The position numbers were made by a program, and so were the translations under genes. Below the pieces are notes generated by a model, which saw only the letters and a program-made list of their open reading frames with translations, was not told where the DNA came from and did not search any database. Of a stretch of DNA of 49,250 bases, positions 485-6,083 are shown one piece after another. Within the stretch, counting starts at the first letter, position 1, and each line of letters begins with the position of its first letter. This stretch comes from Phycisphaerae bacterium (lineage in GTDB: Bacteria; Planctomycetota; Phycisphaerae; Sedimentisphaerales; SM23-30): positions 1-49,250 of the forward strand of contig JAEIOG010000030.1 in assembly GCA_016342495.1 (NCBI GenBank). Reading direction: 5' to 3'.

Positions 485-1939
485 ATGAGATTGTTGACAG
501 TAAAGCTGTTGGCGGCAATAGTGGTATTTGCCTTTTGTGCATTGCCGGTATTTGCTGGCTCAGTTGACAGCCAAACTTTCCAGCCGGAGAAAATTTCTGC
601 TTTTGATGCTGATATACCGGCTAATGTTAAAGGTTATATAATGCGGGGGCAGTATTCCCAAACCCAGCAACCTGGAAACGCCAAAGACAAGGATGTCAAA
701 GCCTATCCTGAAATTAAATCCGATAAAGCGATTTTTGGCTTTGTTATTCTAAATGCCAAAAAATGTTCTTATGTCATTGATGATACTCAAGGTAAAGGCT
801 ATGACAAATTAATTATTGATATTAATGCTGACCAGGATTTGACTAATGACCCGGTCCTGAAGTTGGATAAAAAATCACCCAGAGCAAAAGATTCAGCTCC
901 AGGCAGTATCCATTTTAAGCCATTTAAGCTTAAAGCTGATGGTTATGAAATTTCATTTTCAGCTAGTGCAGTGCCAGTTCCTGGCCGCGATTTGGGAACC
1001 ATCGATACTAATGCCCCAAAATCCTATAGCCTTATCCTGGTTTGTCAGGATGCGTATAAAGGTAATGTTTTAGTGAATGGTAAAAAAATTGACGTTTTTT
1101 ATACGCAAATTGGCAGTATGTCTGACTCCTTTTCTGGTTATTCGACTGCTCTTTTTATGTCGCCAGAATATGATTTCCAGCGTCTTAGTGGCAGAATGAT
1201 TCTGGATGGCAAATTTCTGGATTTTAAATTATCATCTGCTGGCGATAAACTTACAGTTGATACTTATAATGGCCCGATGGGACAATTGAAATTCAGTTTT
1301 GATGATAAAACTCCCAAAGTCAATTATATGACTATTAATTGCCAGGACGGCAAATCTATAAGAATCAAGCCTGAAATGTTCAAAAATAATTTTCTTGAAC
1401 TTCCTGTTGGGCAATATTTAATCAGTAGTGTTGGTATTAATCTCGATCATTATCAATTCGGCATGACCCATATCGGGCAAAGGGAACCAAATTCTACAAT
1501 TATCGCAGATAAACCATTGATAGTTGATCTTAAAAAAACCATGACAGTTGCTTTTGCTTTACCTAAAGAAGATGTTATTAATTTAAAGGCAAAAGAGTTT
1601 GATGTTAAAGTCAGTGCATATTTCTTTTCTCCAGAACTTTCCATGAGGCTTTCTGGTATTCGTGACCTTAGTAAGCTTGAACGCGAAATAAAAATGTCTA
1701 ACGGTCAAATGTATAAGGTTTATAACACCTTGCAGCCTGAGGTCAAAATTACCGATACTTCTGGCAAGGTCATTGCTCAGGGCCAAATGCCCTTTGGCTG
1801 AGGTGGCACCTGTGGCTACACGTGGCGTGTAGCAGAAGACCTCAATGCTTCTGGCAAGACTTTCACTATTGAAGCACTATATGACACTAAGGGTGTTATG
1901 GGAGTGATTTCTGGCAAGAAGACCATAACAGTCAAATAA
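485..1939 (+). CDS. Secreted protein with in-frame TGA; candidate selenoprotein
   Basis: This is an exported protein of unknown function. The ATG at 485 is chosen because AAAGGAG lies just ahead of it and a signal peptide follows (MRLLTVKLLAAIVVFAFCA, then LPVFAG). An earlier in-frame start at 419 has no such support. The body is rich in predicted beta strands with no domain I recognise. The frame meets TGA at 1799-1801 (codon 439) and continues for 45 sense codons to TAA at 1937-1939. The junction reads QMPFG-U-GGTCGYTWRV, putting the TGA residue four before a Cys. The distal part keeps a secreted beta-strand character (KTFTIEALYD, KKTITVK). A SECIS-like hairpin begins at the TGA itself. Selenocysteine insertion is the favoured reading. 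Alternatives are a recent nonsense mutation, or a functional 438-residue protein ending at the TGA. Confidence 0.6.
1799..1844 (+). promoter_or_regulatory. Candidate bacterial SECIS element
   Basis: The sequence can fold into a two-part stem-loop. Bases 1799-1804 (TGAGGT, including the TGA codon) pair perfectly with 1839-1844 (ACCTCA). An upper stem of 8 perfect pairs (GCTACACG 1815-1822 with CGTGTAGC 1826-1833) closes a TGG loop at 1823-1825. The upper stem starts 13 bases after the TGA and the loop 21 bases after it. Known bacterial SECIS elements have a stem just downstream of UGA, a small apical loop with an early G, and a loop 16-37 bases away; all three are met here. The assignment is by structure only. 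Confidence 0.6.
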
Positions 1940-3169: not shown

Positions 3170-4093
3170 ATGATGCGTAAATTTATCGTGTTAGTGATAG
3201 TATTATTTGCAGGGTTTTGCTGGGCACAGGAAAATAAATCCTCACAGATTACTGGCTATATCAAGTCCAAAAAGCTGGATGAAGCATCGGGTTTGGTTGC
3301 CAGCCGTATTCATAAGAATGTGCTTTACAGCCATAATGACTCTGGTGATGTCGCCAGAATCTTTGCCTTAAAAACCGATGGTATGATTTTAGCTCAATAT
3401 CTTTTGAAAGATGTCAAAGTCAGGGATGTCGAAGAGATAGCTATTGGCCCAGGGCCTGTTAAGGGCATAAATTATATTTTTTTAGCGGATATTGGTGACA
3501 ATAACGCTGTCCATGATAATATCAGTGTTTATCGTTTCCCAGAGCCCAACGTGCCATCTGAACCTGATGAATCAGCCGATGCAAGAGCAAAAAAACAGGT
3601 TGATAAGCTCCATTTAATTGAGAAATTTGACACACTTAAATTTATCTTCCCTGATGGCAAACGTGATGCCGAAACTATGTTTGTTGATCCGCTTAATAAA
3701 GATATCTGGATTGTTTCAAAACGTGAAAAAAAATCTCGGGTTTATGTTTCACGTTATCCTCAATTGATTAAAGAAATCAATAAACTTGAGTTTATTACAG
3801 AACTTCCTTTTAATTTTGCCACCGCTGGTGATATAAACTCCGATGGTTCAATTGTATTGATAAAAAATTATGTTTTGTTGGCTAGATATGACCGCCAGCA
3901 GGGCAAAAGTTTAGACCAGGCGTTCAAGGCTGACCCTCAATATATTTCAATTATGCCCGAACCTCAGGGTGAATCAGTTTGTTTTTCAGCAGATGGCAAA
4001 TATTATTATACTATCAGCGAATTTATTGAAAAGTTTCACAAGAAGACGGGTGTTCCTGTTTATAGGTTTGGGTTAATGGATTCTAAAAAGTGA
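3170..4093 (+). CDS. Secreted propeller-like protein of unknown function
   Basis: This 307-residue protein has a clear signal peptide (MMRKFIVLVIVLFAGFCWAQ, likely cut after WA-Q). The mature part has features of exported beta-propeller proteins: DEASGLVASR, LYSHNDSGD, VRDVEEIAIGP, YIFLADIGDN, and a later KRDAETMFVDP repeat-like segment. I recognise this as a widespread family of secreted proteins with an 'E-A-S-G...HNDSG...DIGDN' pattern, sometimes compared to esterase-like phytases, but without an established reaction. GGAG lies about 10 bases ahead of the first of two adjacent ATG codons. It follows the VOC gene by 19 bases and ends in TGA before a pair of hairpins. Confidence 0.65.
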   Translation: MMRKFIVLVIVLFAGFCWAQENKSSQITGYIKSKKLDEASGLVASRIHKNVLYSHNDSGDVARIFALKTDGMILAQYLLKDVKVRDVEEIAIGPGPVKGINYIFLADIGDNNAVHDNISVYRFPEPNVPSEPDESADARAKKQVDKLHLIEKFDTLKFIFPDGKRDAETMFVDPLNKDIWIVSKREKKSRVYVSRYPQLIKEINKLEFITELPFNFATAGDINSDGSIVLIKNYVLLARYDRQQGKSLDQAFKADPQYISIMPEPQGESVCFSADGKYYYTISEFIEKFHKKTGVPVYRFGLMDSKK

Positions 4094-4252: not shown

Positions 4253-5722
4253 CTATGTTGTTGTCAAGTTAACTTTTGAGATTTTTATCTGATTTTTCCC
4301 AGCGGCTTTGGCATCAAACAGAGCATTGTCGGCGTCGCTCATAAAATCTTCGATACTCTGGTTGTGCTGGTATTGCCCCAAACCTATGCTAACAGACACT
4401 TTTAGCTTCTGGCCATCAAAATCAACCAGATCTTCGGCTACAATGCTATTAATACGTTCTGCCAAATGGTAAGCTTCTTCCATGGATGTATTTGGTAAAA
4501 TTGCCGCAAATTCATCTCCGCCATAACGCGCCGCCATATCGGTATGACGGACACATTCCCGGATTTTATGCGATACATGTAAAATGACAGCATCGCCTGC
4601 GCGGTGTCCATAGGTATCATTAATTTGTTTCAGGCCATCAAGGTCAATCATAATCAACGAAAGGTTGCTTTTGTAACGCCTGGCCCGGTCACTTTCCCGC
4701 TGAAGTACCTTGTAGAACGTGCGATGATTTAATAAATTGGTCATGCTGTCGGTTTGGGCTTTTTTCTCTAATTGTTCATAAAGCTCAATGTTGGACATAG
4801 CCGAACCAACAATCTCGCATAGAAGTTGTACCGGAGGCAGGTCTATTCGGCTGTCAAAACTGTAATCATCGATTTTATCCGCCAAATTAAGGATGCCTAT
4901 AACTTTATTGCCACTCAGCAGTGGAGCTATCATGCAGCTATTGCTTTGATAATTTTTAGAAAAATCACGGATGGTGTCAATTCCCTGAAAATCCTTGATC
5001 AACTGGATTTTTTTGTCTCTTAGGGCCATACTCATTGGGCTGTCAAGATGTTTTTTTACATTTATAATCTTAGCTATTCTATAAGGGTGGTTATGTTGCA
5101 AAAGTCTTAAAATGTGGTTTTCACTATCATATGAATATAGTGAAGCAAATCTGGCTGAAATTAACTTGGGGATATACTTGATACAAACCTGGGCAATGGT
5201 TTCCAGGTCAAGGCAGTTTATCTGGCGCGACAGCAGGCTGATCTGATTAATTTTTTCCAGCACTTTTTCCTGGATAATCAGATTTGAGTCAGCGGTTGTC
5301 AATTGCTTACTTAAGGTTTTTACCTTATGGGTTAATTTGCGGTTATTGCTAATAAGATGGTTGGTCTTGCCAGAAAGGGCAGCGATACTTTTGCGGTAGA
5401 AATCAATCTTTTTGCTGAGGTGATTGGGGTTCTGGTTAAGAATATCATCGAAATAATCTGCAATATCTCCTGGTAATTCATTTTCACCTTCATATTGTAA
5501 AAGTACCAATAATGTTGAATTACTTTTGATACCTTCTAGTTGGGCACTTGAAGCATTAAGAGCTATATTGCTTTGAATCAGCACCAGTTCAGCTTCAATT
5601 GGTTCAATTGAGCCGATTTTATCCTGGCATGTCTGTAAATTTAGATCATGGGTTTTACAGTAGCATTCCAGTTCGGTGATGATCGCTGTGCTTTGGCCAA
5701 TATAGATGATTTTTTTGTTCAT
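4253..5722 (-). CDS. GAF-GGDEF diguanylate cyclase
   Basis: This 489-residue cytoplasmic protein should make cyclic di-GMP from two GTP. Residues 1-110 resemble a degenerate receiver-like domain, without the expected phosphorylatable Asp pattern. Residues 111-165 look like a coiled coil. About 165-315 is a GAF-type sensor (IAPLLSGNKVIGILNLADK). Residues 322-485 are the cyclase domain, with the active site GGDEF at 401-405 intact and an RxxD inhibitory site (RHTD, 392-395) exactly five residues before it, implying product feedback. The gene runs convergently to the secreted-protein operon and divergently from the small MerR gene. Being close to a flagellar locus, it may influence the motile-to-sessile switch; that link is inference from position only. 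Confidence 0.9.
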   Translation of the reverse strand: MNKKIIYIGQSTAIITELECYCKTHDLNLQTCQDKIGSIEPIEAELVLIQSNIALNASSAQLEGIKSNSTLLVLLQYEGENELPGDIADYFDDILNQNPNHLSKKIDFYRKSIAALSGKTNHLISNNRKLTHKVKTLSKQLTTADSNLIIQEKVLEKINQISLLSRQINCLDLETIAQVCIKYIPKLISARFASLYSYDSENHILRLLQHNHPYRIAKIINVKKHLDSPMSMALRDKKIQLIKDFQGIDTIRDFSKNYQSNSCMIAPLLSGNKVIGILNLADKIDDYSFDSRIDLPPVQLLCEIVGSAMSNIELYEQLEKKAQTDSMTNLLNHRTFYKVLQRESDRARRYKSNLSLIMIDLDGLKQINDTYGHRAGDAVILHVSHKIRECVRHTDMAARYGGDEFAAILPNTSMEEAYHLAERINSIVAEDLVDFDGQKLKVSVSIGLGQYQHNQSIEDFMSDADNALFDAKAAGKNQIKISKVNLTTT

Positions 5723-6083
5723 AAGTGTTTGGTTGATAATATTTTGTGCTTTTTGTTTGTTAAGGGCCTGCCAGTTGATGAGTTAAAGTATCATAGCTAT
5801 TGTTTTCTTTGGACATTTCAGATAGATTTTAAGATATAACGGCAATAATTGCCAAAAATTAAAGAAAAAAAGCAAAAAAATTTAAAAAAAGCGCAAAAAT
5901 TGCTGATTTAGGGTTGACTTCTTTTCAAAATAGTATATTTTACAAAATGTAAAATACGTTTTTTGGGCAGTTAATCGATATTGAACCTTGTGCAATTCTG
6001 GTTGATTTGTTCTGATTGTCTGTAGTTTTAATAAATAGATATGTTTTGCCTGGAATTGGCATAGCAACCGGAGTTTAATAGCA
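5723..6083. other. Divergent intergenic region between diguanylate cyclase and MerR genes
   Basis: No gene is seen in these 361 bases. The middle (about 5840-5900) is a run of A-rich sequence. The right half holds a promoter-like TTGACT (5914-5919), 16 bases, then TATTTT (5936-5941), with an inverted repeat over the -10 region. The minus-strand promoter of the diguanylate cyclase must also lie here, but I cannot place it. Confidence 0.5.
5914..5956 (+). promoter_or_regulatory. Promoter with overlapping operator-like palindrome, MerR gene
   Basis: TTGACT and TATTTT are 16 bases apart. The inverted repeat TATTTTAC (5936-5943), five bases AAAAT, GTAAAATA (5949-5956) overlaps the -10 element. 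A dyad placed at the promoter of a MerR-type gene suggests autoregulation. In classical MerR promoters the operator lies between -35 and -10, so this one is shifted downstream and would more easily repress. Confidence 0.45.

Follow-up and report, generated by a model that had tools for sequence, protein, structure and literature searches.

A covarying hairpin behind an in-frame UGA points to an apparently undescribed family of exported selenoproteins in planctomycetes and their relatives

In a planctomycete contig of 49,250 nucleotides (the window, i.e. the whole stretch of DNA analysed), the UGA at positions 1799-1801 is almost certainly recoded as selenocysteine (Sec) through a hairpin which follows it within the coding region. 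The first-pass annotation had proposed a bacterial SECIS directing Sec to this codon. This core proposal is supported because the upper stem of the hairpin covaries, the genome holds the full set of Sec genes, homologues are linked to sel genes, and two distant homologues carry Cys in genomes where neither SelA nor tRNA-Sec was found. The gene belongs to what is apparently a so far undescribed family of exported selenium proteins, much multiplied in planctomycetes and relatives.

The gene and its in-frame TGA

Automatic ORF calling delivers a frame (419-1801) that closes at TGA 1799-1801. Behind this codon, 45 further codons stay open in the same frame up to the TAA at 1937-1939. The best start is the ATG at 485, with AAAAGGAG upstream of it; the resulting gene comprises 484 codons with the TGA in frame. 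The features discussed below are:

485-1939, plus strand: selenoprotein gene, 484 residues including Sec439; open through the TGA, homologues share the architecture
485-556, plus strand: probable signal peptide MRLLTVKLLAAIVVFAFCALPVFA; read by eye, with a predicted helix at residues 2-18 and signals, lipoboxes or anchors at the N-termini of homologues
1532-1936, plus strand: C-terminal beta-sandwich (residues 350-484) with Sec439 and Cys443, as predicted by AlphaFold2; matches to MG domains with Z up to 7.7
1799-1801, plus strand: TGA, very probably read as Sec439; of the motif matches that are true homologues, 125 of 126 share it, and the genome has Sec machinery
1799-1844, plus strand: lower stem (1799-1804 with 1839-1844), probably incidental; present in the predicted fold, not conserved
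1811-1813, plus strand: codon of Cys443, four residues past Sec (U-x3-C), invariant in three protein alignments
1815-1833, plus strand: upper hairpin of the SECIS, stem 1815-1822/1826-1833, loop UGG at 1823-1825; covariation

In the window protein, Sec439 lies in the context MPFG-U-GGTCGYTWRV. A general use of TGA as a sense codon was ruled out, as nine of the 39 window genes end in an ordinary TGA, with a second stop at most 11 codons further on. A neighbouring reading frame (3170-4093) encodes a probably exported protein of 307 residues, which has no Pfam match and an ordinary TGA at its end.

The hairpin downstream of the TGA

The pairing described in the first-pass annotation is exact, both for the lower (6 bp) and for the upper stem (8 bp), and so is the spacing of 13 bases between the TGA and the upper stem (1802-1814). 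The minimum free energy fold of 1799-1844 contains both stems plus two extra pairs and has an energy of -18.6 kcal/mol. That such pairing is unlikely by chance holds against synonymous recoding: only 114 of 20,000 synonymous resamples of the same peptide form all eight upper-stem pairs, and 0.6% match the energy of the hairpin. It does not hold for folding energy alone, which is unexceptional by itself (z = -1.70; 12 of 200 dinucleotide shuffles fold equally well); for a context of 111 bases, the folding z-value is -0.94.

The certainty comes from comparison. RNAalifold recovered just five of the eight upper-stem pairs; therefore, the named structure was counted directly. Among 61 homologues, the upper stem is paired in 92.8% of cells. 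The annotation had suggested searching relatives for compensating changes between 1815-1822 and 1826-1833, and had regarded freely broken pairing as grounds for rejection. Compensating changes were indeed found at five of the eight pairs (26 double-change cells in total, matched by none of 500 shuffles), pairing of the upper stem is not freely broken, and the signal disappears once the partner is displaced by 1-3 bases. In 121 homologues, the upper stem averages 7.54 of 8 pairs, compared with 4.99 expected from synonymous codons. Because of this covariation and this excess of pairs, we regard the hairpin as certain on the strength of the sequence comparison. The proposed two-part architecture with the stop codon inside a lower stem did not stand: 413 of 500 shuffles pair the lower stem equally well, which is the chance level, and it was rejected as a part of the element.

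The covariation can be followed in the codons, which change jointly: the combinations Ser TCG/Arg CGA (86 cases) and Thr ACG/Arg CGT (14) are accompanied by the rarer Glu GAG/Arg AGA (2) and Ala GCG/Arg CGC (1), and Tyr TAC/Val GTA alternates with Phe TTC/Glu GAA or Leu CTC/Glu GAG. This switching of codon pairs occurs in more than one subfamily. The window itself carries GGC...GCA where GGG...CCA is common, i.e. a G-C pair was swapped to C-G and pairing was kept. The same swap turns a nearly constant proline into alanine; the base-pair exchange was paid for in the protein. Together with the serine codon of the motif, where 97 of 103 cases use TCG, this example indicates that the RNA structure shapes the protein sequence.

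Bacterial SECIS elements (bSECIS) are expected to have an apical loop of 3-9 nt with a G in its first two positions, an upper stem of 4-16 bp, a distance of 16-37 nt between UGA and loop, and an energy of at most -7.5 kcal/mol (PMC13188914). The window hairpin has a 3-nt loop (UGG), a stem of 8 bp, a distance of 21 nt (1802-1822) and -18.6 kcal/mol for 46 nt; covariation was found for its upper stem, whereas the lower one is without such support. Like elements of the E. coli fdhF type, it lies within the coding sequence immediately behind the UGA, has a G within the first two bases of its loop and keeps the 21-nt distance; this likeness was drawn from the bSECIS consensus. Unlike in that type, the loop consists of the three bases UGG, which double as the Trp codon of the motif. 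A search of the window at Rfam gathering thresholds gave no matches.

Homologues and the codon at the Sec position

Whole-genome searches with the full protein detected homologues in 24 of 118 relatives, nearly all of which have a single in-frame TGA. A scan of contigs with the full window protein confirmed none, and an alignment of the Sec domain was used in its place. The scan, based on a pattern downstream of the Sec codon and hence blind to that codon, found 67 loci. Their MAGs bear the labels Planctomycetota (Phycisphaerae, Sedimentisphaerales, Pirellulales, Thermoguttaceae), Verrucomicrobiota, Lentisphaerae or uncultured bacterium. Over all loci, the codon at the Sec position is TGA in 125 of 131 motif matches; of the six others, five are apparently unrelated sequences, whereas L109 is a genuine homologue that has AGA instead. 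The sequence is conserved both upstream and downstream of the in-frame TGA. Within the order, a profile of the domain matches 59 of 161 genomes, with at most 11 matches in any one of them; in a sample of 392 genomes from the phylum, it matches 22. A plasmid search with a short form of the family gave no matches.

None of the fetched close homologues has Cys at the Sec position (125 have TGA). Three close homologues lack the TGA, namely L018 (near 2180; Gly GGA), L109 (at 1408; Arg AGA) and L153 (near 3680; altered loop), and their hairpins have decayed: of the 8 pairs, L018 retains 5 (by a manual count), L109 likewise 5, and L153 2. Our first impression that Cys forms are absent altogether was overturned by two distant homologues, in genomes G111 and G072, which have Cys at the aligned column. 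They lack the partner Cys, the hairpin motif is gone from their sequences, and neither SelA nor tRNA-Sec was found in the two genomes. The Cys homologues that speak for a selenoprotein are these two distant forms only. In G425 there is a further Cys match, but it is short and doubtful, and a fragment without a stop in G058 (L179) seems to be degenerate.

Export, fold and likely chemistry

We distinguish five subfamilies, which we name A to E; the window protein belongs to A, whose median length is 516 residues. In B, short forms have about 200 and long forms about 450 residues; in D, the Sec domain is followed by some 290 residues with several membrane segments. A DsbD-like electron relay in subfamily D was ruled out, since the membrane part has no conserved Cys. 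Judged by eye, the N-termini of homologues resemble signal peptides, lipoboxes or anchors, and on this reading of the sequences the proteins of the family look exported or membrane-anchored.

Two AlphaFold2 models are confident, with a mean pLDDT of 90.4 for the window protein and of 93.1 for the second one, and in both of them the Sec domain is a beta-sandwich in which Sec439 of the window protein directly follows a short strand of a beta-hairpin. Among the best structural matches are MG domains from complement and from A2M (Z of 7.7 and 7.4), values which may reflect nothing beyond a common arrangement. Whole-chain Foldseek matches are weak, and searching the solved structures by sequence yielded no informative match. 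Independent of the fold matches is a profile link to a planctomycete MG2 domain (hhalign probability 97.2%; GFSWEVP vs GYSWRVP), which is why common descent with planctomycete MG2 domains is plausible. The Sec domain resembles MG2 (PF01835) of alpha-2-macroglobulin and complement-type proteins in its beta-sandwich and its profile, but those MG2 domains carry no Sec or Cys in the loop and are parts of much longer proteins. Among 30 domains, the best E-value to PF01835 was 0.0092, and the gathering score was missed; by this measure the domain is a relative of PF01835 by profile, and possibly by fold, rather than a member.

In the folded protein, Sec439 and Cys443 would be presented outside the cytoplasm, both on one tight beta-hairpin within an MG2/Ig-like domain. 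The most likely chemistry, to which we assign about an even chance, would be that of a selenol-thiol redox pair with a putative selenenylsulfide (Se-S) bond. Both residues of the U-x3-C pair are invariant in three protein alignments of Sec-containing members, and a Sec near a Cys, with proposed redox chemistry, is also typical of the thioredoxin-fold selenoproteins with UxxC or CxxU motifs; these differ, however, in their fold and in the spacing of the pair. Quite possibly, though at somewhat less than even odds, Sec is inserted without a redox function and serves a secreted structural protein as a ligand of a metal or metalloid, or as a site of covalent attachment. Such a role would suit a beta-sandwich with adhesin- and complement-like matches and no redox fold, the large number of paralogues (as many as 11 matches in one genome), and the two distant homologues, which retain the Sec position as Cys but not the partner Cys; the invariance of the U-x3-C pair in Sec-containing members speaks against it. 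The non-thioredoxin fold and the unpaired Cys homologues likewise count against the selenol-thiol pair.

Selenocysteine machinery

The genome of the window encodes tRNA-Sec, SelA, SelB and SelD. A second SelD (G000:C205:18731-19654) has an in-frame TGA itself and is likely a selenoprotein of a known type. With the SelA search confined to the ten unclear genomes among the relatives, tRNA-Sec or SelA was found in 30 of 118 relatives, and the family is present in 29 of these 30. Among the 88 others, four have a single TGA copy, two a Cys form, and 82 lack the family; the association of TGA copies with the Sec trait has p = 4e-22, a value to be read with the relatedness of the genomes in mind, which are not independent.

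Linkage points in the same direction: in 32 of 67 loci, SelA, SelB, SelD or tRNA-Sec lies on the same stretch (at most 10 kb to either side). In G013, a family gene sits between selA and selB, and in G033 one sits between tRNA-Sec and selD. Genes of the 2-hydroxyglutaryl-CoA dehydratase D-component family adjoin selD in G033 (L135:10926-12545) and G013 (L137:5860-7074), and the SelD of L135:10926-12545 is fused with a carboxymuconolactone decarboxylase domain. A separate locus, L136 (G114:C436), contains in the frame of ORF 4366-5736 a deiodinase-like domain with an in-frame TGA at 4336 (SSYT-U-PPFTS) and a hairpin downstream of it; the domain is fused to a multiheme cytochrome, and the gene lies near tRNA-Sec and near clustered genes of the Sec family.

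Two observations count against recoding. One is the folding energy given above. The other concerns genomes G061, G099, G103 and G109, each with one TGA copy and an intact hairpin, in which neither SelA nor a confident tRNA-Sec was found; these genomes are 87-90% complete, and the tRNA-Sec score of G061 is borderline, at the cut-off. A stem downstream of a stop codon can promote readthrough, and the four genomes would agree with a leaky stop, or with Sec-free readthrough aided by the hairpin, in which the C-terminus is an optional extension. This is nevertheless very unlikely, as the family co-occurs and is linked with Sec genes, U-x3-C is invariant, the domain is complete only with the extension, and two homologues have Cys at the position. 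Even less credible is a true gene end at 1801, where automatic ORF calling stops, with the remainder a remnant, a sequencing error or a pseudogene; this idea is already refuted by the retention of TGA, frame and downstream protein in more than 100 homologues from many genomes.

SelB-driven recoding at such elements is established in other bacteria. For the window gene, the ribosome would reach the UGA at 1799-1801 with the hairpin 1815-1833 ahead of it, whose 8-bp stem carries the UGG loop at a distance of 21 nt; SelB carrying Sec-tRNA would presumably bind this hairpin, and Sec would be inserted. Translation would then continue for 45 codons and complete the C-terminal beta-sandwich. The functional element is most probably the upper hairpin, with the lower stem being incidental.

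Relation to known families

At their cut-offs, no Pfam or NCBIfam models matched the family members tested; E-values to the MG2 and FlgD_ig models were weak. The family is absent from an inventory of 119 selenoprotein families, in which the nearest listed motif is the GUxG of hypothetical selenoprotein DG, NF049953 (PMC13188914). This motif resembles the G-U-G-G of our family; NF049953 is, however, a different protein, whose model misses the family: it matched neither the window protein nor seven other members, and its sole match in the genome of the window lies elsewhere and is below the cut-off. We found no account of the family in the open-licence literature; a prior mention is possible in subscription papers or under GenBank names.

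Implications

Automatic annotation probably truncates the proteins of this family at the TGA, with loss of the conserved motif. Described bacterial selenoproteins are mostly thioredoxin-like or metal enzymes. Tentatively, we suggest that many planctomycetes use an extracytoplasmic selenium system, in which a Sec-bearing macroglobulin-like domain, present up to 11 times in one genome, is displayed by secreted and membrane proteins as well as by lipoproteins, with Sec so strictly needed that Cys almost never substitutes for it; this system may be a main user of their Sec machinery. A large exported beta-sandwich family, whose genes frequently cluster with selA, selB and selD and which has hardly any Cys forms, would extend the selenoproteome by a new branch, and it bears on the question why some bacteria retain the Sec trait.
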